From contig CANFUJ010000007.1 of NCBI GenBank assembly GCA_947450165.1, forward strand, positions 1 to 40,053: DNA of 40,053 bases. Reading direction: 5' to 3'. The notes under the pieces were generated by a model. It saw nothing but the letters and a program-made list of their open reading frames with translations. It had not been told where the DNA came from and made no database searches. Position numbers and translations under genes: made by a program. The stretch's first letter is position 1, and every line of letters starts with the position of its first letter. Origin of the DNA: Chitinophagaceae bacterium. GTDB taxonomy: Bacteria > Bacteroidota > Bacteroidia > Chitinophagales > Chitinophagaceae. Shown piece by piece: positions 1,701 through 33,350 of this stretch.

Positions 1701-1812
1701 GAACTTATTTAAAGTGTGGAAAATGAATAATATCTTTACCTTTTGTGAAGATAAGTAATAAACAATTATTGAAAATAAACTCAAAAGAAACAAAGTGAAA
1801 AGAGCGTATTAA

Positions 1813-1820
1813 TAATTTTG
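1813..1820 (+). promoter_or_regulatory. -7 element upstream of the SDR gene
   Basis: TAATTTTG fits TAnnTTTG and lies 23 nt before the ATG at 1844. No TTG was found at the usual -33 distance, so this is a partial promoter call. Confidence 0.35.
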
Positions 1821-1843
1821 ACTTTTAAATTAATCATTATCAC

Positions 1844-2542: not shown

Positions 2543-2546
2543 TGAT

Positions 2547-3254: not shown

Positions 3255-3257
3255 GTT

Positions 3258-4235
3258 TTAAGCAACCGTTTTTAATTGTATAACAAATTTGGCTCCATTC
3301 GGTTCGTTATCTGTTATAAATATTTTACCCTTATGTGCTTTAATAATTCGATGAACCAAATACAAACCCAATCCTGTGCCTTTTGCTTTTTGCGTGGCTT
3401 CGGTACCAATGCGATAAAATTTTTCAAATACTTTCTTTTTATCAACATCTGCAATTCCTGCACCATAATCTGCAAATGTAATGCTACATTGATTTTGCTG
3501 ATTTTCTATTTTGATGGTAATGGGCTGGTCTTTGGGCGAATATTTAATGGCGTTATCGATTAAATTATTAAATGTCATTTGCAATAAAAATACATCTCCC
3601 ATTACGTGCAAAGAACCATTGTTGAAAAACTGAATTTCACGATTGGGAAATCGATTTATAAAATCTGAAACTACAGATTCTAATATTTCCTTAACATCTA
3701 ACTTTTCTGGAGTGTATTGATGCGCACCTGCTTCCATTTGAGAAGAAAGCAACAGATTATTACAAAGCGCATTCATTCTATTGGACTCCTGAATAGTATT
3801 GCTGATAATCTTAAACTGCTGCACTTCATCTAGTTGACGCTTTTGAAGTGTTTCTAAATTTAATTTAGTAACAGCTATTGGCGTTTTTAATTCATGTGAA
3901 ATGGCAACCATAAAATTTTGTTGCTGTCTGCTAATGATGAGTTGCTTATTAACTGCGCGAAATAAAAAAATTGCCCCTGCAGAAATTAATAGAAAAAATA
4001 TGGAACCTTCACCAAGATATTGTGCTGTCTTTCTTTTTTGTTCTGCTTCTATTTGAGCAATTTTAATCACATATGCAGCATCTTCTTTGCTAATCTCATT
4101 TTTTTTAAAATTAGCCATTGACATATTTTGTCTGCTTAATGCGATATACCACCATATCAACGCAGAAAAAATATAAAGCAACAGAAACCAATAAATAAAA
4201 AATATCAATTTTATTTTTTTTGATTTCTTGAACAT
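3258..4235 (-). CDS. Membrane sensor histidine kinase (RprX-like)
   Basis: A 325-residue kinase with two membrane helices (about 10-32 and 77-94) that enclose a short extracytoplasmic loop of some 44 residues. This is too small for a known ligand-binding domain, so it may sense membrane state or a partner protein. No HAMP domain is evident. The second helix leads almost directly to HisKA, with phospho-acceptor His114 in SHELKTP. The ATPase domain has the N box (NNLIDNAIKYS, 223-233), G1 (DYGAG, 256-260) and G2 (GTGLG, 286-290). All catalytic motifs are intact. It precedes its response regulator by 3 nt and follows nadK by 28 nt, so it may be the tail of a longer operon. Confidence 0.93.
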   Translation of the reverse strand: MFKKSKKIKLIFFIYWFLLLYIFSALIWWYIALSRQNMSMANFKKNEISKEDAAYVIKIAQIEAEQKRKTAQYLGEGSIFFLLISAGAIFLFRAVNKQLIISRQQQNFMVAISHELKTPIAVTKLNLETLQKRQLDEVQQFKIISNTIQESNRMNALCNNLLLSSQMEAGAHQYTPEKLDVKEILESVVSDFINRFPNREIQFFNNGSLHVMGDVFLLQMTFNNLIDNAIKYSPKDQPITIKIENQQNQCSITFADYGAGIADVDKKKVFEKFYRIGTEATQKAKGTGLGLYLVHRIIKAHKGKIFITDNEPNGAKFVIQLKTVA

Positions 4236-4263
4236 GAATTGAATATTGAAAAATGGTTTTGAA

Positions 4264-5142
4264 TTAATTGCGCTTATCCAAACCCCAGCTTAGCTTACTG
4301 CGTAAGGTTTGTAAAAAATTATTTTCATTAAGACGAACCAGCTTGATATCGAAGGTTTCTTTTTTCACAGCCAATTGAACTTCTTTACTTACGATTTCTT
4401 TTCTGCTATCGAGCGTTACTAAAAAATCATCCGTTCTTCCTTCTAATTCAAAAGAAACGATATTATCGTCTGGCACTACAATTGGTCGGATATTTAAATT
4501 ATGCGGCGCTACTGGCGTAATTACAAAACTATTGCTTTCTGGAAAAACAACTGGACCGCCACAGCTTAATGAATAACCCGTAGAACCTGTTGGTGTGGCT
4601 ACAATAATACCATCAGCCCAATAAGTATTTAAAAATTCACCGTTTAAATAGGTATGAATTTTTATCATTGGCGATATATCTCTTTTGTGAATTGAAAACT
4701 CATTCAATGCATAAGGTGTATCTCCAAATAGAGGTACATTGGCATCAAGATGGATTAATGTTCGCTTATCGAGTACATATTTTCTTTCGGCAATAGCATC
4801 TATGACACCCTGAATTTCATCTCTACCAATATTGGCCAAAAAACCCAATCGACCATAATTAATCCCAAGTACTGGAATACCCGAATTGCGCACCATAGTT
4901 ACGGTATCCAACATCGTACCATCACCACCTAAACTCAATACACAATCAATACTACTGTCCAAATCTTCAAAAGCATTGAAAGTTGAATATTGATTGTTTA
5001 AATCTACAGATGAATAAAATTGATTGAAAAAATCCTGAAAAAATACGGGCTCAACACCATTTTTAATGAGCTCTTCAAACAACTTATGAATGTCTTTAAG
5101 TTGATCATTTTCTACGCCGCGACTATATATAGCAATTTTCAT
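4264..5142 (-). CDS. nadK: NAD kinase
   Basis: Phosphorylates NAD to NADP in the cytoplasm and so sets the supply for NADPH-dependent biosynthesis. At 292 residues it has the family size. The diagnostic GGDGT is at residues 72-76, followed by GINYGRLGFLA, an ALNEF motif and GSTGYSLSCGGPVV, which bind NAD and form the dimer interface. It is preceded after 19 nt by the outer membrane protein gene and the CBS gene. In many Bacteroidota a CBS-domain gene, nadK and BamA-type genes are neighbours, so the context agrees. Assignment is secure. Confidence 0.96.
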   Translation of the reverse strand: MKIAIYSRGVENDQLKDIHKLFEELIKNGVEPVFFQDFFNQFYSSVDLNNQYSTFNAFEDLDSSIDCVLSLGGDGTMLDTVTMVRNSGIPVLGINYGRLGFLANIGRDEIQGVIDAIAERKYVLDKRTLIHLDANVPLFGDTPYALNEFSIHKRDISPMIKIHTYLNGEFLNTYWADGIIVATPTGSTGYSLSCGGPVVFPESNSFVITPVAPHNLNIRPIVVPDDNIVSFELEGRTDDFLVTLDSRKEIVSKEVQLAVKKETFDIKLVRLNENNFLQTLRSKLSWGLDKRN

Positions 5143-15085: not shown

Positions 15086-16141
15086 TTATAGCTTTACTTC
15101 TATCGCTTTTTCTTTTTGGGCAACAAAAACACCAATAGGTTCAATAAAATTTTCTAACCCATTTTGTTTGAGCAATGCTACTACTTCTTCAAAAGCATTT
15201 GGATTGACGCTAAATAATAAGCCACCATTGGTTTGTGGATCAGGCAATAAATTAAATGCTTCCATCACATTCACCCCTTTTTCAAAACTGGTTTTTGCAG
15301 AATAACTGTTCCAGTTTCTATAAGTTGCATCTGGTACAATTCTTTTTGAAAGATATTCTTTTGCGCCTTCAATAACTGGAATTTTTGAATAAAATAAATC
15401 TATCGACAAATCAGCGCCTTCTGCCATTTCTATACAATGTCCAAGTAAGCCAAAACCTGTAACATCTGTAACAGCAGTAATTCCATCTATTTCAGCTAAT
15501 TTTTCGCCCAATGAATTTAGTGTGGTCATTTGGGAAATCATCTTTGTAAGATGCCCACCTTCAATTACATCTCTTTTTTGTGCGGTGGCTAAAATGCCTA
15601 CTCCTATTGGCTTTGTAATGAATAATAAATCGCCTTCTTTACTCGTGTTGTTTTTTTTGATTTTTGATGTGTCAACAATTCCTGTTACTGCTAATCCAAA
15701 CATCGGTTCTTGTGTGTCAATGGTATGTCCACCAGCCAAGGGTATTCCTGCTTTTGAACAAATATCACGTGCACCATCCAACACTTGACGTGCCAATTCA
15801 GTAGATAGTTTTTCAATTGGCCAACCTAATATAGCCACAGCCATCAATGGCTTTCCGCCCATTGCGTAAACATCACTTATCGCATTTGCTGAAGCAATTT
15901 GTCCAAAATTAAATGCATCATCTACAATAGGCATAAAAAAATCTGTTGTAGATATAATTGATTTACCACCGCCAATATCATAAACTGCCGCATCATCATT
16001 GGTGTTATTGCCCACCAACAAATTTGGGAAATTTATTGATGGCATTTTCGACGAAAGCATTTCTTGCAATACATTTGGTGCAATTTTGCATCCACAACCA
16101 GCCCCTTTTGAAAATTGCGTTAACCTTATTTTTTCTTCCAA
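15086..16141 (-). CDS. selD: Selenide, water dikinase
   Basis: Makes selenophosphate from selenide and ATP, the activated selenium donor. 351 residues. The catalytic loop KGAGCGCKIAP places Cys16 and Lys19 at the positions of E. coli Cys17 and Lys20; both Cys codons are TGT/TGC, so no selenocysteine is used here. Further family motifs are DDAAVYDIGGGKSIISTTDFF, SDVYAMGGKPL, LAGGHTIDTQEP and DVTGFGLLGH. It follows mnmH after 5 nt and is cotranscribed, giving a self-contained unit for tRNA 2-selenouridine. Confidence 0.97.
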   Translation of the reverse strand: MEEKIRLTQFSKGAGCGCKIAPNVLQEMLSSKMPSINFPNLLVGNNTNDDAAVYDIGGGKSIISTTDFFMPIVDDAFNFGQIASANAISDVYAMGGKPLMAVAILGWPIEKLSTELARQVLDGARDICSKAGIPLAGGHTIDTQEPMFGLAVTGIVDTSKIKKNNTSKEGDLLFITKPIGVGILATAQKRDVIEGGHLTKMISQMTTLNSLGEKLAEIDGITAVTDVTGFGLLGHCIEMAEGADLSIDLFYSKIPVIEGAKEYLSKRIVPDATYRNWNSYSAKTSFEKGVNVMEAFNLLPDPQTNGGLLFSVNPNAFEEVVALLKQNGLENFIEPIGVFVAQKEKAIEVKL

Positions 16142-16146
16142 AGTTT

Positions 16147-17196
16147 TTAATTTTTAATTGATGATAAAACCATTTCAGCATTAGTTTTCGGACTAATTTC
16201 TAAAAGTTCGATTTTTTGTAAAAGGTGTTCTACATTTTCACGTTTATGCAACGACGTTATATAGTTTTTGTCGTAATAGTTGAGTAAATTATGAAACGCT
16301 TCTTTAATGTTATTGTCTTCGAAAAGTGCCAATGTAATCTTTGTTTCATTTGGCCCAAAACGTTTTTGAATTCTAATGGTGGCTTCCTTTAAAGCATCTA
16401 TCTCAAGATTGCCATAGGATTGAAGTATAAAGTTCAATCTATTTTCAAAAGGTATATCTATAAAATATAACGGCGATTTTCTAACACTATTCCAAAATGC
16501 ATTGGGAATAATTAAATCGCCAATACGCTGACTCTCATCTTCCACCCAAAAGTAGTTTGTATTGTGTTGTGCATTTTTTTCAGAAATTTTAAGCGCTAAA
16601 ATGTTTTCAAACATTTCTTGAGTAGGTTGCGGCATTTGTCCAATACCACCAAATGCAGATCCCTTATGGTTTGCAATACCTTCTAAATCAATGATGTTTT
16701 CGCCCAATCTTTCCAACTCATGAAGTGTTTCTGTTTTTGCGCTTCCTGTATAACCGCCCAATACTTTTATTTCATAAGGATATTCAAATTGTACCAATAC
16801 CCAATTTCTAAATGCTTTATAACCACCTTCTAATAGATAAACATCATAGCCGTATAAATTAAGCAACCAGGCCACTGCCGCACTACGCATGCCTCCTCGC
16901 CAACAATGCACCAAGATTTTTTTGTTGTTGGGTTGTATCCTATCACACAATTTCTCCACTTCCTCAACCATGCTGCGCATTTTTGTTCCAAAGAAATCAA
17001 GCCCTAATTTAATGGCCATTTCTTTGCTTTGCTTTTTATATGCAGTGCCAACAATCTTTCGCTCTTCATTTGAAAATAACGGTAATGACACCGCGCCAGG
17101 ATAATGCGCATGGTTATATTCTTCAGGACTTCTTACATCAAATACCAAATGATGTTCTGAAAGTGCAATAAAATCAGATACGCTAATTTTTTTCAT
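16147..17196 (-). CDS. mnmH: tRNA 2-selenouridine synthase
   Basis: Replaces sulfur by selenium at position 2 of the wobble uridine in tRNAs for Lys, Glu and Gln, using selenophosphate from SelD. The N-terminal rhodanese domain (about 1-130) carries the catalytic Cys98 in VHCWRGGMRSAA. The C-terminal P-loop domain has GGYTGSAKT at about 147-155 and the family segment LEGIANHKGSAFGGIGQ. 349 residues is the normal size. Known enzymes first geranylate the 2-thiouridine and then exchange it for selenium. With selD directly behind it the substrate supply is local. An ordinary but informative pair: it predicts selenium use in tRNA without needing selenoproteins. Confidence 0.96.
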   Translation of the reverse strand: MKKISVSDFIALSEHHLVFDVRSPEEYNHAHYPGAVSLPLFSNEERKIVGTAYKKQSKEMAIKLGLDFFGTKMRSMVEEVEKLCDRIQPNNKKILVHCWRGGMRSAAVAWLLNLYGYDVYLLEGGYKAFRNWVLVQFEYPYEIKVLGGYTGSAKTETLHELERLGENIIDLEGIANHKGSAFGGIGQMPQPTQEMFENILALKISEKNAQHNTNYFWVEDESQRIGDLIIPNAFWNSVRKSPLYFIDIPFENRLNFILQSYGNLEIDALKEATIRIQKRFGPNETKITLALFEDNNIKEAFHNLLNYYDKNYITSLHKRENVEHLLQKIELLEISPKTNAEMVLSSIKN

Positions 17197-17285: not shown

Positions 17286-18344
17286 TTAGAAAAACTCCCA
17301 AGGATAACGGACATTACAATCACCAGAGTTTCCGGTTGGACAAGGTACGTCTCCCCCTGTTACATTAAAATCTTTTTGAACGCCAAATTCCATACTACCA
17401 AAGGTCGTCTTTATTCCTGGTCTGTAAATGTCCACATCATAATTTAAACCCATCTTTGAAGTGTATGCGCCTTTATCTAATACTGCCATTTTCTTGCCCA
17501 ATTTCCAAGTTACACCTATGCAAAAACTACTGTTGTTGGCTAAGCCAATTGCATTTCTATACCACAATCCAAACTCAATGGGAAAGTCTGCATAATCTAT
17601 AATTACACCAGCGCTAATAACACTTGATTTACCTTGAAACTGTGTAATAATGGTTGGCTTTAATCCAATAACATTGTATTCATTTACGTTACTATAACTT
17701 AAATGCGTGGTTATTTTTTTAGGAAGCTTTGAGTCATCAGGTGTTCCAACAAAACTTGTAGCTGGCTCATTCATATGATGTACAGCAGCACCAATCATAA
17801 AGTTTCTATAGGTAAAAACAAACCCCGAAGAAAAATCAAAATAGTTTTTAGAATTGATGGTTTTAAACAGCTCTACATCTGATGGTAAACCAGTAATGCC
17901 ATTTTGATTGAGCTGATCTATAAAAACAAATTGAGACGGATTTACCCTTGCAAAGTTATACCCTGCCTGTAAAGCAATATTTAAAAACCATTCTTTACAA
18001 CTCACATTTGTACCAAAACTTCTTCCTACAATGCCACTGATATTTGTATTGGAGATGTATCCTTTTGATTGATGATTTACATTAAATCCAAGGTTCAATA
18101 TGTTTCTTCTACTATCATCATAAATGGCGTAATCCATTCCCCCAGAAAAATATTTGTAAGGCTTGTATAAATTAAACCATTGCAATTTTGTTACTGCTGA
18201 TAATCGCAGATAATCTTTACCTGTGCCCGTTAATCCAGGATTAAAGTACATTGGGGTATAGCTAAACTGACTATAAAGCGCATCTTGTGTAAATCCAAAA
18301 TGAAACGTCAATAATACAAATAGGGTTAAAGTAATTTTTTTCAT
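17286..18344 (-). CDS. PorP/SprF-family type IX secretion outer membrane protein
   Basis: A 352-residue beta-barrel protein with a signal peptide (MKKITLTLFVLLTFHFGFT, then QDALYSQF). The opening SQFSYTPMYFNPGLTGTGKD and later FFSSGFVFTYRNFMIG-like blocks are hallmarks of PorP/SprF proteins. SprF is required to display SprB on the cell surface in Flavobacterium johnsoniae, and pairs with cargo proteins that carry a type B C-terminal domain. Here it starts 2 nt after the stop of the giant SprB-like gene, so they form an adhesin-plus-partner operon. It likely captures or anchors that protein at the outer membrane. The specificity is inferred from gene order. Confidence 0.93.
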   Translation of the reverse strand: MKKITLTLFVLLTFHFGFTQDALYSQFSYTPMYFNPGLTGTGKDYLRLSAVTKLQWFNLYKPYKYFSGGMDYAIYDDSRRNILNLGFNVNHQSKGYISNTNISGIVGRSFGTNVSCKEWFLNIALQAGYNFARVNPSQFVFIDQLNQNGITGLPSDVELFKTINSKNYFDFSSGFVFTYRNFMIGAAVHHMNEPATSFVGTPDDSKLPKKITTHLSYSNVNEYNVIGLKPTIITQFQGKSSVISAGVIIDYADFPIEFGLWYRNAIGLANNSSFCIGVTWKLGKKMAVLDKGAYTSKMGLNYDVDIYRPGIKTTFGSMEFGVQKDFNVTGGDVPCPTGNSGDCNVRYPWEFF

Positions 18345-18346
18345 AA

Positions 18347-21300
18347 CTATCTAAATAAGGTTAACGTTCCAAAACTATGTGCAGGTTGGCCTTGCTGTGA
18401 TTTATCGTAATTCATCCCTTCCCAAACTTTGCCGTTTCTAAATCGAGCTTTAATTTTCCATGCATAAGCATCTTGTGGCATAGGAGCTCCTTTGAACGTT
18501 CCATCCCATCCTTCAACAGGACTTCCAGCGTAATCTAATTTGGTTGTTCTAAACAATAATTTTCCCCAGCTATCGAATATCAATAACTCATATTCAGCCA
18601 AGCCTTTTCCTAATGGTTTAAAGTATTTAAAATCGATTTGGGTGCTGTTGGCATAAAAAGCATTCGGAACATATAAATATCCTGGATAACCTATAATACG
18701 TGCATATTTTATAACAGTATCCACACAACTTGTGGTAGTATCTAATACCGTTAAACGCACTTCATAATTTCCAGTATCACTATATAAGTGAGATACCACA
18801 TCTCTTGTTATGGCAAAGGATCCATCTCCAAGCGACCAATTATATTTATAAATTGGATAATCAGGTGTTAAATTTAAAAATCCAAAAGTATAATTGGGTA
18901 TGTAAATCGTTGGTGATGGCGTGATGGTGAAATCTCCTTGTGGCAATGCATATACTTTGATATAATTCGCTCTTGTTAAGGAATCTCTACAACCATCTGC
19001 GTTTATTGCCAATAACGTTACTGAATATGGCGTTGCACTTGGGTTTAAAATTATTGTTGGCGATGTTTCGGTTGTAGTATATCCGTTACTTACGGTCCAT
19101 AAAAACGAAGTTGCATTTGCCGTTAAGTTTATAAAACGAACACCAGAAGTATCACAATTTTTTACATTATTGGCAATGAAGTTTGCCGTAGGTTTTTGAG
19201 ATACAACCACAGAATGACTAATCGTATCCGTACAAACCCCATCTGATGCCGTTAGTAATGTGTTATAAACACCTACAGAAGAGAATAAATGGGTTGGATT
19301 GTTTATGGTACTATTGGCTGTAGCATCGCCCCACTCCCAAGTATATGCGTTTGCATGCTGACTCGTATTTGTGGTAACCACGGCAAGTTGACCCGAACAA
19401 CCAAGCGTATTGTTAAAGCTGAAAGCAGCAATAGGCATCACGCGAGAACGGAAAGTAAAGCTGCTGGTATCTGGGCGGCATGCATAAATATTAGATACAA
19501 TTAACGTTACCGTGTAACTTGTATTGGCTGTGGTGATATTGATATTTGGATTTTCATTTATACTCACCAATACACCATTTAAATACCATTGATAATTTGT
19601 TGCGTACGTTGAGCTGTTGTTAATTGCTGCAACAAACGGAATACAAGCTTGTGGATTGCTTAAATTGAATATTGATTTTGCAGTAGGGCTTATTTGTAAT
19701 GCGCCCGTTGTTGAATCCGCACATCCAACTGAATTGGTAGCAACTAGTTTTGTATTAAATATTCTTGGTAAAATATCTGTTGGCAATGCCGTATATCGAT
19801 ATGTGAAATTGCCTGATGTTGCACGTTGAATACCATCTACATACCATCGATAAGTTAATGGCGTATATATATTTGCCGTTGTATTGTTTATATAAGACAC
19901 CAAAGTATCCAAACTACAAGTTGTTAGATTTAATGGCGTGAAAGTAGCTACCGGTTTAGCATACACGCTCAAGAATCTAAACGAACTGTCCTTACAACCA
20001 GATGCATTTTCAATCACCATGACTACTTTAAATCTACCCGAATGATTAAATGTATAATTTAAAATAGGATTAGAAATTACAACAGGATAAACTGGAAGTG
20101 TTGTATCATATACATACCAAGTTATTGATTCCGTTGTATATCCTGGTACAGACCCTGTGATTATAAAAGGAGAGCAATTCACTGGATTTATATTGGTGAT
20201 GATTGCCGTATCGGGTTTGCTTAAAATGGTAATCGATCTAGTAATGGTATCGAAACATACCAAACCAGTTGCATTACTTTGTTGTGCTTCCAATTGTACA
20301 TTATATACACCTGGATTTAGGTACATATAATTTGGCTGAAAATTTGTATTAAAAATACCATTCCCAAAGCTCCAAATGTAATTGGTAGCGTTGATGGAAT
20401 TATTTATAAATCGAGTAGTATCGCCAAAGCAATATACGGTTTGACTGGTTGTAAACGCTGCCGTTGGACGCGGATAAACGGTAATCGATGTATTAATCGA
20501 TGTATCGCTACAACCGTTTGTCATATTGATTTGGATATTAAAATTACCCGCTGTATTGTACGTATGATTTACTATGGTTTGAAAGAAATTTGTAGTTTGT
20601 AATGGTGTGCCATCTCCAAAATTCCAAGTAAAATTGGTTGCTCCAGTACTTGTGTTTATAAAATTCACCGAATGCGAAACACAGCCGTATAATTCTGTTG
20701 CGTTAACAGAAACACCAGGATGAATTACATTAGGCGCTACACGAATTTTAATGATTTGCGAATCTCTTCCACATGCACTTATTGCAACAAGTTTAAGCTC
20801 GAAAGTATCAACAATTCCTGTGTAATATGTGTGCGTTAATGTACCAAGTGTTGTGGTGGTTTGGATTGGCGTGCCATCTCCAAAATCCCAATAATAGGTA
20901 TGTGGATTTCCCAATGAGCTATTGGTAACTTGTATGGTAAATGGCGAACAACCTGATGAAGAAGAAACAGCAAATCTTGCTTTTGGATCAGCTCTTACAA
21001 TTACACTATCTAAATATGTTGTGGTATCACATTCATTAAATGCTCGTAGTGTTATATAATATGTTGTATCAAAAAATCTTGGGTTGCTTACATAAGTTAC
21101 TGGACCAGGATTTGTAGCCGTTGATGTTTGTCCATTTCCAAAGTTCCATTGATATCTAAATGTATCTCTAATATTGGTTTGATTTACGAATGAAATGGTT
21201 AATGGTCCACAACTGTCTCTATTAGACATTGTAAATGCGGCGGTTGGTTTTGGTTTGGTATAAAAAGTATGGGTTAAACTATCGTTTTTACAACCAAATG

Positions 21301-24300
21301 CACTTATAGAAACCATTTTTATTTTAATGGAATCGCTTGGTCCTTGTATTATATATCCTGGAAATACTGAGCCTGCCCCAATAAAGGTTTCTATTCCCAA
21401 TTGATTGATGTTATACCAATTGTAGCTACTGTTTGGAATGTTTACATTTCCTGGTGATAGTTGTGAAGTATTATTAATCACAATTGAGTAAGGCCAACAA
21501 GCAGTATCATAAGGCCAACGAAAATCTGCGTTTGCATCAGGATTCACATAGATGGTGTAATTGGTTGCTGGACCAGCGCAAGCACTGGCTGTGGATGAAA
21601 CAGCATATACCACAGAGTCTTGAGCTATACCATTGTTGGATAAAGTCATTGCACCTAGTGTTGGGCCATTGCCTGCTGGCAAATAACCTGTTACGTTTCC
21701 AAATGAAACTAACGTCCATGCATAAGTTGCCCCTGCTGTAAAGGAAGACCAATTCACTGACGTAGTGGTGTTTCCATTACAAACAGATTGGCTCAAAGGA
21801 TTATTGCTGATAGAAGCAAGCGGATTTACTGTTATATCAACATTGAATGGTAAACCTGGGCAACTTCCTGCTGCGCCTGATATTGGTGTTACCACATATG
21901 TTACTGTTATAGGAGCAAATGTTGTATTATATAACGTACCACTAATCGTTGATTGATTTGTTCCAGATGCTGCCCCACTCATTCCTACAGTAAGCGTTGG
22001 AGCTGACCAATTATATACTGTAGCGTTAGGTACTATTGTATTTGCGTTGGGTTGACCATTTGCTGGATTTAACAGAAACCCTATTCCACTACAAACAGTT
22101 TGCGTTAATGTTGGGATTACAGGCTTTGGATTTACCGTTACTGTAATTGTAAATAGCTGACCGATACAAGAATCTGCAATGCCAGACCTTGGTTTTACTG
22201 TATACACAATAGTTTGTGGTACATTACTAATATTAGTTAATGTATCTGCAATTGATGTTTGTGGAATAGACTGACTTGACTGACCTGTTATATTTGAATT
22301 GTTTGATACCGTCCAAGTGTATGTTGTACCAGAAGGTACTATTGTATTTGTATTATTTACTGGCTGAACATTAAAGAATTCTCCACTACAAATTGTTTCT
22401 GTTGTGTTTGGAATAACTGGAGTTGGTGTTACAACAATTTGATAAGGAGTTGGCGTTCCAGGACAAGCCGAAGTACCCGTAGTAGAAGCTGTTGCTGTAT
22501 AAGTAACTGTTATTGGATTAGGGGTTGTATTTATTAATGTTTGTGTAGGAATTGTGCCCGATCCCGAAAGTGTTACACCACTGATACCAAGAGGTTGTAC
22601 TGATGTCCATGGAATTATAGCATTTGGAGTGGGTGATGTTAATGTTACCGCTTGCGAAATATTACCAGAACATATAGATTGATTTGGTAGAGAAAAAACA
22701 ATTCGAGGTGCAGGATTTACAGAAATCACAACAGTAAAAGTATTACCAGGACAACTGCCAGAGATTGACGAAACGGTATAAGTTGCCGTTTGTACAAAAT
22801 CAGTAGGATTAAACAATGTGCCTGTTATATTAGATTGGTTCGTTCCGGTTGCACCTCCTGTTAAACCTCCAGTTACCACTGGAAGGCCCCATGAATAAAG
22901 GGTGTTAGAAGGAACGCTAGAGGTTCCACTTGGAGATATTAAAAAACTGGCACCACTACAGATTGTTTGTAATTGACCAGAAACTACTGGTGTGGGATTT
23001 ACAATTACATCTATTTGTGTTCTTAAACCTTCGCAATGTGCAGGCGTTGTTTGACTCACAAAATATGAAATTGGTGAAGTAGTACTTGTAGATGGAGTTG
23101 GGGCTGTAGCAGAAGCCGTTCCTCCGGTTAATGATGTGTACCAATTCAACGTATGGCCAGGCAATGCTGTTGCAGTAAGTGCAACAGGAACATCATATTG
23201 GCAATAAACAACTGGACTAGGAGCAACAGGAGCCAATGGACGCGGATTAACAATTACAGTTGTTGTACCTGCTTGAGATGTACAATTACTAATCGTAACC
23301 GTTACACTATAAACACCATTTGCATTTAATCCAGCAGCATTAATAGATGGATTATAATTTGTGCTTGTAAATCCATTAGGTCCTGTCCAATTCCATGTTG
23401 CATTTCCTGTTGATGTTGTTGTTGCGTTTAATTGTAATAATTCACCATCACAAATTGCACCGTTGTTTGTTACAGTTGGAACTGGTGGCGGCGTTGGGTC
23501 TACTAAATTAAACGGACCAACTGGTGCAGATGGACAATTGGTCAATACCACATACACATTAGAATATGTTCCCGCAGGAAGTAATGGTATTGTAATTACA
23601 CCAGTTAAATTACTCGTTATGGTTGATGTTTGAGCACCAGCTGAATTCGTATAATGCACTGTGTAAGATGTTGATGCATTTAATCCATTTAAAGAAATGC
23701 TTCCTGTTGAACTTGCACAACTGGATGGATTAATTGATGATGAACTGCTTATTACTGGAGTAGCATTTATAACAACAATTGTTGATGCGGTTGCTGATGG
23801 ACAATTCAATGTGGTTGAAGTGGTATATGTTGCTATAGCATACACTTCATATGTTCCATCCATAGCCGTTGTTGCATTTGCACTTACCTGTGGGTTTTGA
23901 GAAGTCGATGTAAAACTATTTGGACCCGACCAACTCCATGTCACTGGCATTGTACTGGTTGTTGATGCAGTTAATGTTAATGCATTTCCAGTACATACTG
24001 GTGTATTTGATGATGCAGTTGGAGTTGCGGGTGTTTGGTTTACTGTCACATTTATAGTTCCTGCTGGGGAAGTACAGCTATTAATGGTAACCGTTACACT
24101 GTAGGTTCCTGTTGCTAATGTTGTTGCGTTGGTAATGGTTGGATTTTGATCTGAACTTGTAAACGAATTAGGCCCTGTCCAACTCCATGTTGCTGTTCCA
24201 GTTGATGTAGTTGATGCACTTAAATTTATTGTATTTCCACTACATAAAGGATTTACACTTTGAATCACAGGAGTCACAGGCGGAGTGGGATCTACTAAAC

Positions 24301-27300
24301 TAAAAGGACCAACAGATGTCGATGGACAATTGATTAATACCACATACACATTGGAATATGTTCCCGCAGGAAGTGATGAAATTGTTATTACGCCAGTCGA
24401 ACTACTCGTTAAAGTTGATGTTTGAGCTCCAGCTGAGTTCGTATAATGTACTGTGTAAGATGTTGATGCATTTAATCCATTTAATGTTATACTTCCTGTT
24501 GAACTTGCACAATTGGATGGATTGGTTGATGATGAACTGCTTATTACAGGAGTAGCATTTATAACAACAATTGTTGATGCTGTTGCAGATGAACAACTTA
24601 ATGAGGAAGCATTATACGTTGCCGTAGCATACACATCATACGTTCCATCCATCGCTGTTGTTGCATTTGCACTTACTTGTGGGTTTTGAGAAGTCGATGT
24701 AAAACTATTTGGACCCGACCAACTCCATGTCACTGGCATTGTACTGGTTGTTGATGCATTTAATGTTAATGCATTCCCTGTACAAACTGGTGTATTTGAT
24801 GATGCAGTTGGAGTTGCTGGGGTTTGGTTTACTGTCACATTTATAGTTCCTGCTGGGGAAGTACAGCTATTAATGGTAACCGTTACACTGTAGGTTCCGG
24901 TTGCTGCTACTGTAACATTGGAAATGGAAGGGTCTTCATCCGAACTTGAGAATCCATTCGGTCCTGTCCAGTTCCACGTTGGTGTACCAGAACCAGTGTA
25001 ACTCGTGTTCAACTGAAGTGTATTACCGCTACAGATATTGTTTCCAGAAGGTACTGGCGCTGATGGGGTTGTTGTAATCGTGATGTTTGTATCTATATTT
25101 ACTGCTGGACATCCATTTCCTGCTGGAATGTTGTAATTCACAGTATAGGTGCCCGCTGTACTCGTAGATGGATTTACGGATCCATTACTTGTATTCAACG
25201 TAAGTCCTGTCGTTCCTACTGGTGATATACTAAAGGTGCCACCCGTTGCTCCCGTCAATGTAACACTCTGATTCGTTTGATTTGTACAAATCGTAGATGG
25301 ATATGATATCGTTGCTGTTGGTGATGAACTTACTGTAACCGAAAAAGTAGCCTGACATCCAAACTCATTTGTATAAGTAATGGTTGATGTGCCCGCCGCA
25401 ACGCCAACTACCGCTCCCGAATTATTAACTGTTGCCACACTCGTATTCGATGATGACCATGGTGTACTTGTGGCTGGATTCGTTGTTGCACTAAAACTCA
25501 CATTCGATCCCACACAAATTGATGATGATCCTGTGATTACGGGTAATGGCTTTACAATAACGTTTACTTTTTTAGTACAACCATTGGTATTTGTATACGT
25601 TATGATACTAGTGCCTACTGATACAGTTGAAACTAATCCTCCAGTACTTATTGTTGCAACGCTTGTGGTTGCTGAAACCCAAGGATTTATGGTTGCTGCT
25701 GTTGCACTACCCGTTAGCTGACTTGTGTTGTTCAAACAGATAATTGTATCTCCTGTTATGGTTGGTAAAGGATTTGCCGTGAATGTTACATCAGATTTAC
25801 AACCATTAGAATTTGTATAAGTGATTACTGAAGTTCCAGAACTTACTGCTGTTACTACTCCCGAATTTGTAACTGTCGCTACACTTGTGGTTGCTGAAAC
25901 CCAAGGATTCGAGGTAGCTGCTGTTGCACTACCCGTTAAAGTTAAAGTGCTTCCCACACATATCGCCGAATTACCCGTTATTGTTGGAAGTGGATTGACC
26001 GTAACCGTAATGGACGTTCTAGGTCCTTCACATCCATTAGATGTTGACTGACTAACATAATAAGTTGTGCTGCCTGCTGTTGTAGTGGATGGTATCAATG
26101 AGGTTACTCCTGTTCCACCAGTTGAAGTGGTATAATAAAGTAACGAGTTGGATCCAGTACCTGTTGCAGTTAAAGCAGAAGCTGTAACATTTTGGCAATA
26201 AACAACTGGGCTTGTTACTGTTGGTCCTGAAGGTGTATTTGTAATTGTTATGGTTGTACTCACATCAACTGCCGAACATCCATTTCCTGCTGGAATGTTG
26301 TAATTCACAGTATAGGTGCCCGCTGTACTCGTAGATGGATTTACTGATCCATTACTTGTATTCAACGTAAGTCCTGTCGTTCCTACTGGTGATATGCTAA
26401 AGGTGCCACCCGTTGCTCCCGAAAAGGTAATATTCTGATTTGTTTGATTTGTACAAACTGGTGAAGGATATGATATCGTTGCTGTTGGTGATGAACTTAC
26501 TGTAACCGAAAAAGTAGCCTGACATCCAAACTCATTTGTATAAGTAATGGTTGATGTGCCCGCCGCAACGCCAACTACCGCTCCCGAATTATTAACTGTT
26601 GCCACGCTCGTATTCGATGATGACCATGGCGTACTTGTGGCTGGATTCGTTGTTGCACTAAAACTCACATTCGATCCCACACAAATTGATGATGATCCTG
26701 TAATTACGGGTAATGGCTTTACAATAACGTTTATTTTTTTAGTACAACCATTGGTATTTGTATACGTTATGATACTAGTGCCTACTGATACAGTTGAAAC
26801 TAATCCTCCAGTACTAACTGTTGCAACGCTTGTGGTTGCTGAAACCCAAGGGTTTGTGGTTGCTGCTGTTGCACTACCCGTTAGCTGACTTGTGTTGTTC
26901 AAACAGATAATTGTATCTCCTGTTATGGTTGGTAAAGGATTTGCCGTGAATGTTAAATCAGATTTACAACCATTAGAATTTGTATAAGTGATTACTGAAG
27001 TTCCAGAACTTACTGCTGTTACTAATCCCGAATTTGTAATTGTTGCAACGCTTGTGGTTGCTGAAACCCAAGGATTAGTTGTAGCTGCTGTTGCACTACC
27101 CGATAAAGTTAAAGTGCTTCCCACACATATCGCCGAATTACCCGTTATTGTTGGAAGTGGATTAACCGTAACCGTAACCCCTTTCTGACATCCATTAGCA
27201 TCTGTAAATGTTATGGTAGCAGATCCTGCAGCTACACCTGTAACTACTCCTGTGTTACTAACTGTTGCTACACCTATGTTAGACGATGTCCAGGTTCCAG

Positions 27301-29800
27301 AACCTGTTGCTGTAGATGTTCCTGTTAACGTTGTGGTTTGCCCAACACAAACCGACAATGTTCCAGTTACAGTTGGTAATGGATTTACTGTTACAGTTGC
27401 TGAAGCAGGTGTTGAACCGCAGACATTTGTTACAGTTAATCCAATGTTATATGAACCTGAATTGGCATAAGTAATTGTACCAGGGGAGGAAACATTTGAG
27501 GAAGAAGGATTTCCATTTGCAAAAGTCCATGCATAAGTTGTGTTTGCATCAATAAAGCAAGTGCTGGAATTTGTAGGAGTTATTGACTGATTGACGCAAA
27601 TTGTTGAATTGGACAAGCTTATAGAAACCACAGGTTTCCCTTTAACCGTAATGGTATCTTTAAAAATTACTGATTGGCAACGGTTATTCGGAGCTATAGT
27701 TTGTAATGAGATAATATATTGACCTGGACTTACAAATTGAAAATGTGGATTTTGTGAGGTAGAACTTGTATTGTCGATATAACTATAATCTGATGTTGTT
27801 GGTGTACAACTAGGATTAGATAAATATGCAACACTATATTGATAAGTATTTTGTCCGCAAGTGGGAGTGTTTGTTGAACCACTGGCATACACTGATTGGT
27901 TAGGGCAAATGGTATCTCTATTTAATGTAAATGAAGCCTTTGGAAGGGGATTTACACAAATAGTTTTTGTCATAGTATCTGTTCCAGAACATAAAGATGA
28001 GTTGGATGCTAGAAGCTTGATTGTGTATATACCAGCTGAATCAAATCTTACATTAACAGAGTTTGTGCCAGAAACCCAATTGTCAACACCTCCAGGAATA
28101 ACAGATCCTAAATTAAAACCTGATTGTATTTGATATCTAGTTCCTGGAGAAATAGGGGATATTTGCCAAACTATCTTTCCATCTGTACAAGTTTCGGTGG
28201 AAACATCAATACTTTTTCCTGGGTCTCCTATATTTGTTAGTGTAATTGTTTGACCAACACAAATTGAATCATACGGAGTAATTGTAAAGTCGGCTTTTGG
28301 AGATTTAGCAACATAAATTGGAGATACTGCAAATCTCTTAGTACCACAAGGATTTTTTACAGTTAGAAAAGCACCAAATGCGTTAGTAGATACACCCGTC
28401 CCAGTAGTTGTATTTGTACCACAACTAGTAGATGGAAAAGTATGTGTAATTGGATATGGATTTGAAATAGGATGAACTAAAACTACAGAATCGTTTGAAC
28501 CATCATTGAAAGTTACTGTATAAATTGTTCCCGAGGTGTTTGCGTTAGTCCCTGAAATCTGGACAGTATCTTGAGATCCAGAACAAATTACATCCGATAT
28601 ACCAGATCCGAAATTTGCAGCAGGAACACTTCCAACAAAGACTTTGTACTTTGCAGTATCTGAACACGAATTATTGTTCATTATAAAAGTAAGATTATAT
28701 GTACCTACATTATAATTATGTCCAATGGTTATCCCCGAGGTTATTGGCGCAGTAAAAGTTGTTTGGTCATAATTCTGAGATGAGGAAGCATCTCCCCATT
28801 GAATTTGATATGTAGTTGTGCTTGTAAAGTTTTGAGAGTTGTTTAAAAATTGTAATTGTTGGGAGCCTGAAGAGCATATATAAAAATATTGTTCTCCATT
28901 TATGGTGGTTAGTTGCTGTGCAGCAGATGCATTAGCTAACTGTGCATAAGGACTCGTTCCTATCGTCGTCGTTTGCGTAACCGTATCCTTACAACCAAAA
29001 CTATTTGTAACAATCAATCTAATGCTAAACGTTTGTCCACTTGAATTACGAGGAAAATTATTGTTGGTAGTTATTCCAGTTGATGTATTGTTGTAGCCGT
29101 TTGGCCCGCTAAACGTCCATTGATAATTGGTAAATGAACCTCCACTCGTAGTTGATGTAGAAGTGAATTGGTATTTACGTCCGCAATTGGAGGTAAATGT
29201 AAAACTCGCTACTGGCTTGGGGTTTACCACCACTCTCACCGTATCCAAAGTTGAACAAGTAGAAGCACTATCCGCTTTAATCACATAATCAAAAGTACCA
29301 GCAGTTGTGGTAGGAACGGTGTATGTTGCATTTGTTCCCAATGAAGCTGTGCTTCCTAATAAATACCAATTAATAGATGCACTAGACGGAGCAACACTTC
29401 CTGTTAAATTAAATAAACTACCCTGACAAGTACTTTGATTAGATCCTGCATTCACACGAGGACTTGGGTTTACAGTAACTTGTACAGTATCGCTTTCTGT
29501 GCACGCCGTAGCTCCTGATCCACTACTCACTTTTATGATATAATTAAAAACTCCAGATGTAGAAAGTATAGTGTTTATTGTAGAAGTAGTAGAAATTATG
29601 TTTGATGAATTCCCTTGAATAAACCACTGAATGGTAGCTCCTGTGGGAGCTACAACTGCCGTTCTAACAAAAGCTTTATTCTGACAAATTGTAGTATTAT
29701 TCCCTGCAGTTACACTACATTGAGCCATCAACACATTTGGTAATGATAGTGTAAATAAGCAGATTGCTAATTTAAAAATTAGGTTGTTTAATTTTTTCAT
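18347..29800 (-). CDS. Giant SprB-like modular surface adhesin, T9SS C-terminal domain
   Basis: A secreted protein of 3817 residues (about 390 kDa). Signal peptide 1-26 (ends NVLMAQC). Roughly by residue: Ig-like/PKD modules to about 800; a BIG_2-like array to about 1570, each unit with W-S-x-SVATV-GxVT-GTS-ITYTN-GC and a paired Cys; Ig-like modules with SPAGTINVTVN ends to about 2275; five PKD-like repeats (CSGxxFxxxP, then GTxYxW) to about 2750; true PKD domains with WNFGDGTP/WDFGDG motifs to about 3710. The final 100 residues (YLYVPNAFYANSTQIDFKYF to TLTLFR) are a gliding-type CHU_C domain, a type B signal for type IX secretion. SprF-like partner follows after 2 nt. It probably forms a long surface filament for adhesion or gliding. 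No enzymatic domain was seen. Confidence 0.93.
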   Translation of the reverse strand: MKKLNNLIFKLAICLFTLSLPNVLMAQCSVTAGNNTTICQNKAFVRTAVVAPTGATIQWFIQGNSSNIISTTSTINTILSTSGVFNYIIKVSSGSGATACTESDTVQVTVNPSPRVNAGSNQSTCQGSLFNLTGSVAPSSASINWYLLGSTASLGTNATYTVPTTTAGTFDYVIKADSASTCSTLDTVRVVVNPKPVASFTFTSNCGRKYQFTSTSTTSGGSFTNYQWTFSGPNGYNNTSTGITTNNNFPRNSSGQTFSIRLIVTNSFGCKDTVTQTTTIGTSPYAQLANASAAQQLTTINGEQYFYICSSGSQQLQFLNNSQNFTSTTTYQIQWGDASSSQNYDQTTFTAPITSGITIGHNYNVGTYNLTFIMNNNSCSDTAKYKVFVGSVPAANFGSGISDVICSGSQDTVQISGTNANTSGTIYTVTFNDGSNDSVVLVHPISNPYPITHTFPSTSCGTNTTTGTGVSTNAFGAFLTVKNPCGTKRFAVSPIYVAKSPKADFTITPYDSICVGQTITLTNIGDPGKSIDVSTETCTDGKIVWQISPISPGTRYQIQSGFNLGSVIPGGVDNWVSGTNSVNVRFDSAGIYTIKLLASNSSLCSGTDTMTKTICVNPLPKASFTLNRDTICPNQSVYASGSTNTPTCGQNTYQYSVAYLSNPSCTPTTSDYSYIDNTSSTSQNPHFQFVSPGQYIISLQTIAPNNRCQSVIFKDTITVKGKPVVSISLSNSTICVNQSITPTNSSTCFIDANTTYAWTFANGNPSSSNVSSPGTITYANSGSYNIGLTVTNVCGSTPASATVTVNPLPTVTGTLSVCVGQTTTLTGTSTATGSGTWTSSNIGVATVSNTGVVTGVAAGSATITFTDANGCQKGVTVTVNPLPTITGNSAICVGSTLTLSGSATAATTNPWVSATTSVATITNSGLVTAVSSGTSVITYTNSNGCKSDLTFTANPLPTITGDTIICLNNTSQLTGSATAATTNPWVSATTSVATVSTGGLVSTVSVGTSIITYTNTNGCTKKINVIVKPLPVITGSSSICVGSNVSFSATTNPATSTPWSSSNTSVATVNNSGAVVGVAAGTSTITYTNEFGCQATFSVTVSSSPTATISYPSPVCTNQTNQNITFSGATGGTFSISPVGTTGLTLNTSNGSVNPSTSTAGTYTVNYNIPAGNGCSAVDVSTTITITNTPSGPTVTSPVVYCQNVTASALTATGTGSNSLLYYTTSTGGTGVTSLIPSTTTAGSTTYYVSQSTSNGCEGPRTSITVTVNPLPTITGNSAICVGSTLTLTGSATAATSNPWVSATTSVATVTNSGVVTAVSSGTSVITYTNSNGCKSDVTFTANPLPTITGDTIICLNNTSQLTGSATAATINPWVSATTSVATISTGGLVSTVSVGTSIITYTNTNGCTKKVNVIVKPLPVITGSSSICVGSNVSFSATTNPATSTPWSSSNTSVATVNNSGAVVGVAAGTSTITYTNEFGCQATFSVTVSSSPTATISYPSTICTNQTNQSVTLTGATGGTFSISPVGTTGLTLNTSNGSVNPSTSTAGTYTVNYNIPAGNGCPAVNIDTNITITTTPSAPVPSGNNICSGNTLQLNTSYTGSGTPTWNWTGPNGFSSSDEDPSISNVTVAATGTYSVTVTINSCTSPAGTINVTVNQTPATPTASSNTPVCTGNALTLNASTTSTMPVTWSWSGPNSFTSTSQNPQVSANATTAMDGTYDVYATATYNASSLSCSSATASTIVVINATPVISSSSSTNPSNCASSTGSITLNGLNASTSYTVHYTNSAGAQTSTLTSSSTGVITISSLPAGTYSNVYVVLINCPSTSVGPFSLVDPTPPVTPVIQSVNPLCSGNTINLSASTTSTGTATWSWTGPNSFTSSDQNPTITNATTLATGTYSVTVTINSCTSPAGTINVTVNQTPATPTASSNTPVCTGNALTLTASTTSTMPVTWSWSGPNSFTSTSQNPQVSANATTAMDGTYEVYAIATYTTSTTLNCPSATASTIVVINATPVISSSSSINPSSCASSTGSISLNGLNASTSYTVHYTNSAGAQTSTITSNLTGVITIPLLPAGTYSNVYVVLTNCPSAPVGPFNLVDPTPPPVPTVTNNGAICDGELLQLNATTTSTGNATWNWTGPNGFTSTNYNPSINAAGLNANGVYSVTVTISNCTSQAGTTTVIVNPRPLAPVAPSPVVYCQYDVPVALTATALPGHTLNWYTSLTGGTASATAPTPSTSTTSPISYFVSQTTPAHCEGLRTQIDVIVNPTPVVSGQLQTICSGASFLISPSGTSSVPSNTLYSWGLPVVTGGLTGGATGTNQSNITGTLFNPTDFVQTATYTVSSISGSCPGNTFTVVISVNPAPRIVFSLPNQSICSGNISQAVTLTSPTPNAIIPWTSVQPLGISGVTLSGSGTIPTQTLINTTPNPITVTYTATASTTGTSACPGTPTPYQIVVTPTPVIPNTTETICSGEFFNVQPVNNTNTIVPSGTTYTWTVSNNSNITGQSSQSIPQTSIADTLTNISNVPQTIVYTVKPRSGIADSCIGQLFTITVTVNPKPVIPTLTQTVCSGIGFLLNPANGQPNANTIVPNATVYNWSAPTLTVGMSGAASGTNQSTISGTLYNTTFAPITVTYVVTPISGAAGSCPGLPFNVDITVNPLASISNNPLSQSVCNGNTTTSVNWSSFTAGATYAWTLVSFGNVTGYLPAGNGPTLGAMTLSNNGIAQDSVVYAVSSTASACAGPATNYTIYVNPDANADFRWPYDTACWPYSIVINNTSQLSPGNVNIPNSSYNWYNINQLGIETFIGAGSVFPGYIIQGPSDSIKIKMVSISAFGCKNDSLTHTFYTKPKPTAAFTMSNRDSCGPLTISFVNQTNIRDTFRYQWNFGNGQTSTATNPGPVTYVSNPRFFDTTYYITLRAFNECDTTTYLDSVIVRADPKARFAVSSSSGCSPFTIQVTNSSLGNPHTYYWDFGDGTPIQTTTTLGTLTHTYYTGIVDTFELKLVAISACGRDSQIIKIRVAPNVIHPGVSVNATELYGCVSHSVNFINTSTGATNFTWNFGDGTPLQTTNFFQTIVNHTYNTAGNFNIQINMTNGCSDTSINTSITVYPRPTAAFTTSQTVYCFGDTTRFINNSINATNYIWSFGNGIFNTNFQPNYMYLNPGVYNVQLEAQQSNATGLVCFDTITRSITILSKPDTAIITNINPVNCSPFIITGSVPGYTTESITWYVYDTTLPVYPVVISNPILNYTFNHSGRFKVVMVIENASGCKDSSFRFLSVYAKPVATFTPLNLTTCSLDTLVSYINNTTANIYTPLTYRWYVDGIQRATSGNFTYRYTALPTDILPRIFNTKLVATNSVGCADSTTGALQISPTAKSIFNLSNPQACIPFVAAINNSSTYATNYQWYLNGVLVSINENPNINITTANTSYTVTLIVSNIYACRPDTSSFTFRSRVMPIAAFSFNNTLGCSGQLAVVTTNTSQHANAYTWEWGDATANSTINNPTHLFSSVGVYNTLLTASDGVCTDTISHSVVVSQKPTANFIANNVKNCDTSGVRFINLTANATSFLWTVSNGYTTTETSPTIILNPSATPYSVTLLAINADGCRDSLTRANYIKVYALPQGDFTITPSPTIYIPNYTFGFLNLTPDYPIYKYNWSLGDGSFAITRDVVSHLYSDTGNYEVRLTVLDTTTSCVDTVIKYARIIGYPGYLYVPNAFYANSTQIDFKYFKPLGKGLAEYELLIFDSWGKLLFRTTKLDYAGSPVEGWDGTFKGAPMPQDAYAWKIKARFRNGKVWEGMNYDKSQQGQPAHSFGTLTLFR
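23225..25060 (-). repeat. In-frame 789-bp (263-aa) tandem duplication in the giant gene
   Basis: The segment TPATPTASSNTPVCTGNAL and the surrounding Ig-like modules recur with a period of exactly 789 nt (compare the GTGTATTTGATGATGCAG matches at 24001 and 24790). About two full copies and a third, more diverged partial copy are visible, all in frame. Copy edges are approximate. Confidence 0.85.
25070..27177 (-). repeat. In-frame 1167-bp (389-aa) tandem duplication in the giant gene
   Basis: A block of five modules (three BIG_2-like, two others) is present 1.8 times with a period of 1167 nt. The near identity is seen from antisense shadow ORFs at 25380-25721 and 26547-26888, which differ at 3 of 113 positions. 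The period is a multiple of three, so the frame is kept. Confidence 0.9.
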
Positions 29801-29903
29801 ATATTATTTAGAGAAGTCTTTTTTATACTATTATTATTAATTATTTCGATTTATAACCCATCTTTTAAAAAATCGACAAATTATACGTTCATAAAAACTT
29901 ATG

Positions 29904-29912
29904 CCCCCCCCC
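29904..29912 (-). repeat. Homopolymeric (G)9 tract in the leader of the giant gene
   Basis: Nine C on the plus strand, hence nine G on the coding strand, in otherwise A+T-rich DNA. It lies 104 nt before the start codon and about 70 nt after the predicted transcription start. Such tracts are classic sites of slipped-strand length change. Confidence 0.9.
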
Positions 29913-29983
29913 TTTCACATTAAACATTTTTTGAAAAACTATAGACTGATAGGATACTTAAAAACCTGTGAATAAAATGTTGG

Positions 29984-30014
29984 CAAATTTATAGGTTTAT
30001 TGCTTACAACCAAA
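29984..30014 (-). promoter_or_regulatory. Putative promoter of the giant adhesin operon
   Basis: Read on the minus strand: TTTG at 30014-30011, a 19-bp spacer, then TAAATTTG at 29991-29984, an exact match to the Bacteroidota -33/-7 consensus. The start of transcription would lie near 29977, giving a leader of about 177 nt that includes the G tract. This is the best promoter match found beside the one for ppiD. Confidence 0.6.
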
Positions 30015-30052: not shown

Positions 30053-31270
30053 CTAATTAGTCCAGGCCAGCTTCAGCATTAAATAAGAGGGGCGAAATTG
30101 AGTGGTATACCATCCTCCGGTTTGAACAATCTTCACCAAACCAAACCATTCTTCCACATCATTTGCATCTTGTGTGTACGAGTCCTGTAAATCGTATTTC
30201 CACCATGAATCCAAATACTCATGCACACATGCTCCTGCTATAGGTAAATTGGTGGTTCGTAAATCTTGTACATTAGTCAATAACCCCGAAGACTGCTCCT
30301 GCTCTGTATTTCCACCATATCCATAATTTGGCGCTCCTACGTGATTTGCATTTGGCGATACACTCAATCCCATCTCCGTTAATAATAATGGCATCGCAGG
30401 ATAACGCCCCTTCAACTCCTCTACCCAACCCTGAAACAACGATCCCGTTCCACTGCCAACTTGCGTTTGTGGTCGATATTCTGGTACCGAATAAGAATAC
30501 ACGTTATGACACCTGAAATCCAAAAACTCCGTATCTATCATATCCGCCGTTCTGATGTCGTTCGAATAAGACACCAACGACATCCTTCCATAATTTATAT
30601 ATTCATATTGCTTTACATAATCGGCCATTTCTGCAATAAATGCTTCCGTTGCATTAATGTTTCCATTTGTAAATACATATTCGCCCGAATAACTATTGAT
30701 ATTTGGATGTGCCAAATTGGTACTTCTTATACTCGATGCACTCAATTCGTTTCCTACTAAATACGCAATTATGGGCGGATTTTTATTGGTATAAACAGAA
30801 TATATCCTGTCTATTACCGATCTAATATAGGTTTTGGTATTTACTTTAAAGGTTGGATCCTGAAAATCTACCTGATCTCCATTTATCCAAATGGTTTGCA
30901 ATATGGATAAACCACCTATCGACTTAATCGACTCGTAACATTTTTTTGGCGCACCCCATAATCGGACCGTATTGGCGCCCATAGCTTTAATATTAATCAT
31001 ATCCTGATTAATGCTATTTGAAAAATTCAACGGCAGATTGGTATTTTGTTCTGTTTCCCACGGCAGTGTTCCCGGATAACCTGGTACATACACCACACCT
31101 TTTATCTCAAATGGAATGTCGTTTTTTAAAATAAAATGATTGTTTACCGTGTAATTATCCACTTTTGGAACAATTGGTACTACAACATTAGAAGTTGATT
31201 TTTCTTTGGTACATGAACACAACATCATTAATGCAACAATACAAACATTAATGAAATATCGAAAAAACAT
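30053..31270 (-). CDS. Lipoprotein, glycoside-hydrolase clan A-like TIM barrel
   Basis: A 405-residue secreted lipoprotein. The signal peptide ends LMMLCSC-T with Cys20 as the likely lipidated residue; a Cys/Lys/Ser-rich linker follows. The body resembles the (beta/alpha)8 domain of GH5/GH2-type retaining glycosidases: IKAMGANTVRLWG (about 95-106), the acid/base candidate Glu175 in VGNELS and the nucleophile candidate Glu299 in LLTEMG, plus aromatic-rich VHEYLDSWWKYD near the end. Exact family and substrate are not determinable by eye; mannan or beta-glucan are possibilities only. It stands apart from the giant adhesin, whose start lies 252 nt past the end of this gene, with no shared operon. 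Confidence 0.72.
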   Translation of the reverse strand: MFFRYFINVCIVALMMLCSCTKEKSTSNVVVPIVPKVDNYTVNNHFILKNDIPFEIKGVVYVPGYPGTLPWETEQNTNLPLNFSNSINQDMINIKAMGANTVRLWGAPKKCYESIKSIGGLSILQTIWINGDQVDFQDPTFKVNTKTYIRSVIDRIYSVYTNKNPPIIAYLVGNELSASSIRSTNLAHPNINSYSGEYVFTNGNINATEAFIAEMADYVKQYEYINYGRMSLVSYSNDIRTADMIDTEFLDFRCHNVYSYSVPEYRPQTQVGSGTGSLFQGWVEELKGRYPAMPLLLTEMGLSVSPNANHVGAPNYGYGGNTEQEQSSGLLTNVQDLRTTNLPIAGACVHEYLDSWWKYDLQDSYTQDANDVEEWFGLVKIVQTGGWYTTQFRPSYLMLKLAWTN

Positions 31271-32999: not shown

Positions 33000-33350
33000 A
33001 ACATATCCGATACCAATGAAAAACCAGAACATCCAAAACCAATGAAAAACTAAAACCAAAATCCAAACCAAATGAAAAAACCAAACATCCGAATCCCAAA
33101 AAAACCAAACCCGTATTAAAGTCCAAATCCAAAAAAATCCAATCCAAATGAAAAAACCAGAACATCCAAAACCAATGAAAAACTAAAACCAAAATCCAAT
33201 CCAAAAGAAAAAACCAAACATCCGAATCCAAACCAAATGAAAAAAACCAAATTATCCTAACCTGTAGAAAACTAAAACCGAATTAATATCTTAATCCAAA
33301 CACAATCCAATCCAAATGAAAACGTTTTATCCAATCCAAATGAAAAAAAC
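33000..33350. repeat. A/C-only tandem repeat, about 133-bp period
   Basis: The plus strand is nearly free of G and T except in ATGAAAAA and CATCCG words. A block CCAGAACATCCAAAACCAATG recurs at 33024 and 33157, a period of 133 nt, with shorter echoes of AATCCAAACCAAATGAAAAAA. About two copies plus degenerate tails. The minus-strand ORF of 81 residues here is a by-product of this base bias. Confidence 0.85.

Follow-up and report, generated by a model that had tools for sequence, protein, structure and literature searches.

What might a putative secreted protein of 3817 residues do in an uncultured Chitinophagaceae bacterium when the gene directly behind it encodes a PorP/SprF-family protein, and would such a protein be moved along the cell or simply held on its surface? 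The locus lies in a 40,053-nt stretch of DNA with 34% GC (hereafter the window; GenBank assembly GCA_947450165.1, contig CANFUJ010000007.1, positions 1 to 40,053), which belongs to a metagenome-assembled genome (MAG) that is 97% complete in 237 contigs (2.63-Mb assembly). An earlier note on this DNA had proposed a giant SprB-like adhesin with its own SprF-like partner in one operon. Both open reading frames (ORFs) are indeed intact on the minus strand and 2 nt apart, namely a giant adhesin gene with an ATG start (29800-18347; ORF, translation and Pfam domains), whose translation has the length of 3817 residues given in that note, and a gene for a 352-residue PorP/SprF-family protein (17286-18344). 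Taken together, our analyses suggest, with a probability of about 85%, that the two encode an adhesin of the type IX secretion system (T9SS) with a type B C-terminal domain (CTD) and its cognate SprF shuttle and anchor; this figure covers export and anchoring, and mobility is weighed separately below. Such an adhesin/SprF arrangement is already known and common in kind (PMC12618676), and the pair adds a Chitinophagaceae case, extending the cognate adhesin/shuttle rule of Flavobacterium johnsoniae to a lineage with six such pairs.

The earlier assignment of the downstream protein to the PorP/SprF family holds well above both curated cut-offs, at 120.6 bits against TIGR03519 (cut-off 90.55) and 110.6 bits against PF11751 (cut-off 22.3). 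By inspection the protein carries a signal peptide, and its AlphaFold2 (AF2) model has 14 strands (pLDDT 78.7), the last of which ends at residue 326, consistent with a putative outer-membrane shuttle and anchor. Among the structural matches listed, the top query-normalised TM-score was 0.58, to chain 8gl6_F of a T9SS complex, which we take to be PorV, and a search of PDB sequences with SprF, either singly or as a profile, gave no significant hit.

The adhesin for its part ends strictly in a CHU_C-like domain that adjoins sprF (18350-18688, minus strand). This domain, the gliding-type CHU_C domain of the earlier note, matches the type B models, but at scores below their curated cut-offs, with 25.6-32 bits against TIGR04131 (cut-off 35) and 24.0 bits against PF13585 CHU_C (cut-off 27). 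TIGR04131 is nevertheless matched at E 0.01 or better by the window CTD and by five orthologues (6/6 tested), and when a profile of nine members (the window CTD and eight relatives) was aligned by hhalign to five cut-off-passing CTDs of the same genome the probability was 99.1% (E 1e-18, 79 columns). The AF2 model (pLDDT 91) places four main strands in the CTD, with pLDDT ~95 over most of the domain, and the published description of type B CTDs fits this four-strand model (PMC12618676). Where the profile leaves the end of the domain unmatched, an extra W-x-GM-x-Y segment precedes the final GTLTLFR. Considering the profile comparison, the predicted fold, the position and the co-inheritance with SprF, we regard the CTD as a T9SS sorting domain of type B that has diverged in sequence, and because current profiles leave such a subtype under their cut-offs, counts of type B adhesins are probably too low. 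A related extended CTD is also carried by giant adhesins in Bacteroidales and Lentimicrobium (L105, L117, L118, L126 and similar), where the SprF tails end in ECCPF or ECTPF, pointing to a broader family around this CTD subtype.

Additional support for a cognate pair comes from the rest of the genome and from its relatives. The genome holds eight PorP/SprF genes and seventeen type B CTD matches, and six of the former, the window's among them, lie directly 3' of a CTD-bearing ORF. When each SprF and each CTD was assigned its best partner, the two agreed in five of these six pairs, again with the window's included (C55 with C36, C15 with C206 and C7 with orthologues elsewhere; the exception is C196). 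A search of 60 related genomes returned close SprF orthologues (55-63% identity) in five genomes of the same genus and one at 35% in a sixth, and a separate scan of genome contigs found two relatives that are very close (95% and 84%) with the same mnmH-selD neighbourhood and eleven more without it, these eleven being Chitinophagaceae or Chitinophagales MAGs except for some records whose names are vaguer or open to doubt. Each orthologous SprF for which the upstream sequence could be read stands behind an adhesin whose CTD is of the same subtype. The earlier idea of a dedicated partner thus gains both from the orthologous pairs in other genomes and from the way SprF and CTD agree in their best hits. 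In genome G025 (L067:1162-17892) two adhesin-SprF pairs with differing CTD and SprF subtypes stand in tandem within 17 kb, and a record titled as a Streptomyces griseus MAG (L092) contains a Chitinophagaceae-type SprF of 64% identity and is probably mislabelled or contaminated.

The T9SS core genes, on whose presence the earlier note had made its proposal depend, are encoded in this genome: SprA, PorV, GldK, GldL, GldM and GldN all score above cut-offs (NCBIfam for PorV and GldK/L/M/N), as do GldB, GldD and GldH, so that secretion and gliding both appear possible from gene content. In F. johnsoniae the gene for the shuttle directly follows that for its type B substrate; the shuttle is needed for the secretion of that substrate and sets its final location, and the mobile type B adhesins have no porE neighbour (PMC12618676, PMC9143113). 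By analogy with those studies, the adhesin would enter the periplasm through its signal peptide and cross the outer membrane via SprA, guided by the CTD, after which the adjacent SprF barrel would collect it, free it from the translocon and retain it on the surface, where it would form a long filament of Ig and PKD domains whose N terminus lies farthest from the cell.

Whether this filament would also travel depends on a possible link between SprF and GldK. Cysteines in the SprF tail of F. johnsoniae form a disulfide with Cys343 of GldK by which the adhesin is towed along the track, a bond needed for sustained movement (PMC12635249). The tail of the window SprF (residues 327-352; 17289-17366, minus strand; delimited by the AF2 model and the orthologue tails) carries Cys335 and Cys343, the first of which is kept in the window SprF and in 13/13 relatives (L082-L094) and the second in all except L093; a single tail cysteine is present in each of the remaining five paired SprFs of this genome. 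Moreover, Cys251 and Cys307 of the GldK encoded here align with the PorK cysteines and are spaced like Cys285 and Cys343 of F. johnsoniae, and Cys307 would by spacing be the counterpart of that GldK Cys343. The complex might therefore be coupled to the gliding track through a disulfide between SprF and GldK and be towed, rather than be fixed to the cell wall, and we lean slightly towards towing over wall fixation because no PorE gene adjoins the pair, SprF has two tail cysteines and the GldK cysteine matches that of PorK and Cys343. Adhesion or gliding, both put forward in the earlier note, fit what the genome encodes.

Several observations weigh against the reading of a type B adhesin with its own SprF, or against its mobility. 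The CTD lies beneath both curated type B cut-offs; the GldJ-like protein, at 400 bits, stays under its cut-off of 458; the tail spacing is C-x7-C and not the C-x-C expected for the SprF of an SprB-type mobile adhesin, as in F. johnsoniae; and two-cysteine tails are also found on unpaired PorP proteins, so the tail alone is no proof of mobility. In a mirror-tree comparison of 31 pairs, SprF and CTD distances have a correlation of 0.90, but SprF distances correlate equally well (0.92) with those of the upstream PKD region, and we rejected this test as proof of CTD-SprF contact because it reports co-inheritance of neighbours only; the agreement of best partners within the genome would be the better sign of pairing. 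A reading on which the adhesin is secreted and anchored by SprF in the same manner, and attaches to surfaces or cells while not being moved by the gliding track, has a little less than an even chance in our estimate. Type B substrates are for the most part predicted to be adhesins, and some of those in F. johnsoniae are static (PMC12618676); the spacing of the tail cysteines departs from the characterised motif; and the presence of six adhesin-SprF pairs in a single genome suggests divided roles, in which not every adhesin need move. These points are countered by the genes that follow the pair, which are mnmH and selD with no PorE-like gene beside them, by the conservation of the SprF tail cysteines and the alignment of GldK C307 with PorK's cysteine, and by the gliding gene set of the genome. 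A static example with which to compare is Fjoh_3952-Fjoh_3951 (PMC12618676), which similar to the window pair has a cognate CTD and SprF-like shuttle side by side and an adhesin predicted to be retained at the surface, but is followed by a PorE-like gene, unlike the pair described here. With SprB-SprF of F. johnsoniae the window pair shares a giant, predicted secreted filament protein, a type B CTD (here by a match under the curated cut-offs), a PorP/SprF protein encoded directly downstream, the lack of a porE neighbour, two SprF tail cysteines and gld and T9SS genes in the genome, and it differs in its C-x7-C tail and in its divergent CTD subtype with W-x-GM-x-Y; according to the earlier note, the order of modules is also unlike that of SprB in detail.

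Two further explanations are far less likely. That the CTD is no T9SS signal and its neighbouring SprF a coincidence is the least probable of all, since the scores under the TIGR04131 and PF13585 cut-offs that would speak for it are set against the 99.1% profile match to accepted CTDs of the same genome, the TIGR04131 match in every orthologue tested and a CTD-SprF adjacency that is kept across genomes with differing flanking genes. A type B match, the other finding on which the earlier note hung its proposal, is present in the profile hits, at scores under the cut-offs, and is joined by the predicted four-strand sheet. The second explanation arises because the best PDB sequence match of the adhesin is GhpA of Aureispira (871 bits, E 1e-260, phmmer; PDB 9flp and related entries), likewise a giant T9SS protein with a CTD that our A4 profile classes as type B (49 bits), and on this ground the adhesin might be a grappling-hook predation protein as in Aureispira ixotrophy. 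However, the match is confined to the Ig-like repeats (GhpA 1120-5107, related to adhesin residues ~1583-2209) and the CTD, with no similarity between the adhesin and the GhpA N-terminal region, so that homology does not run the full length of GhpA. The Ig repeat shared with GhpA is moreover found in 136 of the 198 Bacteroidia genomes sampled, and GhpA is likewise matched by a further adhesin (L071) but not by one paralogue. Ixotrophy is reported to use a type VI secretion system (T6SS) (PMC11205867), and no match to the T6SS sheath gene VipB was found in this 97% complete genome. We therefore set aside a specific relationship with GhpA as generic sharing of Ig domains, which is not evidence of ixotrophy; a hook-like role is very improbable, and the suggestion of predation in the earlier note finds no support. 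The reading that we retain is that of a type B adhesin with its cognate SprF.

A signal peptide was recognised by inspection in residues 1-26 of the adhesin (MKKLNNLIFKLAICLFTLSLPNVLMAQ; 29723-29800, minus strand, as are all features of the protein given here), in agreement with the earlier description, and slice-wise Pfam searches gave, from N to C terminus, two Ig_7 domains, a PKD domain, a long unassigned stretch, a further PKD, a Big_2 array with Ig_7, an Ig-like block, Ig_7, a PKD_5 array, a PKD array and the CTD, which bears out the module order of the earlier note and adds two Ig_7 and one PKD at the N terminus. The distal N-terminal region (residues 27-805; 27386-29722) comprises the two Ig_7, the PKD, the unassigned stretch and the next PKD; it is followed by the Big_2 array with Ig_7 (residues 811-1520; 25241-27370), the Ig-like block that resembles the GhpA repeats (residues 1577-2190; 23231-25072; phmmer against PDB and self-comparison), the PKD_5 array (residues ~2260-2755; 21536-23023) and a conserved, membrane-proximal base of PKD array and CTD (residues 2850-3817; 18347-21253). 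In composition T, S, N and G are abundant and charged residues scarce. Self-comparison reveals a duplication that looks recent, with 93-98% identity between residues 901-1170 and 1290-1559, and a second one with 66-91% identity by window between residues 1577-1844 and 1839-2108; because the genome is a MAG and the gene holds two long internal duplications of 66-98% identity, its exact length could be a compromise of the assembly. Windowed blastp against 11 relatives shows that residues ~2850-3817 are conserved throughout the group, and that the distal two thirds are kept in the nearest relatives only or are reshuffled; complete adhesins in the group have about 2000 to 3300 residues. This pattern shows a membrane-proximal base that is passed on together with SprF and an outer shaft that has been reshuffled.

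How the pair might be expressed is suggested by two features ahead of the adhesin gene. A Bacteroidota-type promoter match found by pattern search, TTTG-N19-TAAATTTG (29984-30014, minus strand), lies in the 252-bp intergenic region, where the chance of such a match on the correct strand is ~0.007; in the window as a whole 2 promoter-type matches were seen and ~4 are expected by chance. Of the "good promoter" named in the earlier note, the match is thus present and its activity only plausible. No promoter match was found upstream of the pair in five complete relatives, and sigma-70-type hits from the scan were set aside as irrelevant to Bacteroidota promoters. Between this match and the ATG, in the 5' leader and 103 nt before the start codon, run counts identified a G9 homopolymer on the coding strand (29904-29912, minus strand), a candidate phase-variation tract that is the only run of at least six G or C in the window and the longest of four G runs of at least seven in the assembly. 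Simple models expect 18 to 57 such runs, so long G runs are depleted in this genome; any chance estimate for the G9 tract itself is weakened because the feature was noticed after the fact. Two of the other three runs lie within genes, and the third, a G8 run outside any ORF found (L205:3992-3999), is the only other non-coding one and has no gene start within 400 nt on its plus side.

Poly-G tracts upstream of surface-protein genes have been linked to phase variation, for example in tprL of Treponema pallidum (PMC7864442), where similar to our case about nine Gs precede a surface-protein gene; unlike tprL, the candidate tract of the window lies downstream of the promoter match. Nothing relevant on phase variation by poly-G tracts in Bacteroidota came from the literature that we searched, which is not proof of absence. 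Of the two nearest relatives, one genome has G tracts of 7-12 G and the second has tracts of 7-8 G; their contigs end before the adhesin start, and the adhesin leader itself was not identified. We raise only as a tentative and rather unlikely idea that the G9 tract could act by slipped-strand changes as an on/off switch of the adhesin-SprF pair in single cells. If true, expression of this type B adhesin would be phase-variable, a case in Bacteroidota in which a variant C-x7-C SprF tail also links the adhesin to the gliding track. The locus leaves two leads that can be tested cheaply, the bonding of the C-x7-C tail to GldK and the switching of a giant adhesin by a G tract. In one of the near-relative genomes (G256) runs of 9-12 G occur at L189:4011-4022, L190:4433-4441, L191:4579-4587 and L192:4568-4576, one in a short ORF, one in a 489-aa ORF and two between ORFs, and these are possible further phase-variable loci.

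On its 3' side sprF is followed by an mnmH-like (rhodanese) and then a selD-like gene (15086-17196, minus strand), an order that is kept in the two nearest relatives (L082 and L083), and a terminator scan showed none between sprF and mnmH. The SelD-like protein has a cysteine, not a selenocysteine, within its GCGC motif. Upstream of the adhesin the window encodes a predicted lipoprotein with no Pfam match (30053-31270, minus strand), which is glycosidase-like by eye only, and further on A-rich tandem repeats of 30 and 76 bp (33020-33219) lie between genes for an arginyltransferase-like protein and a SurA-like isomerase.

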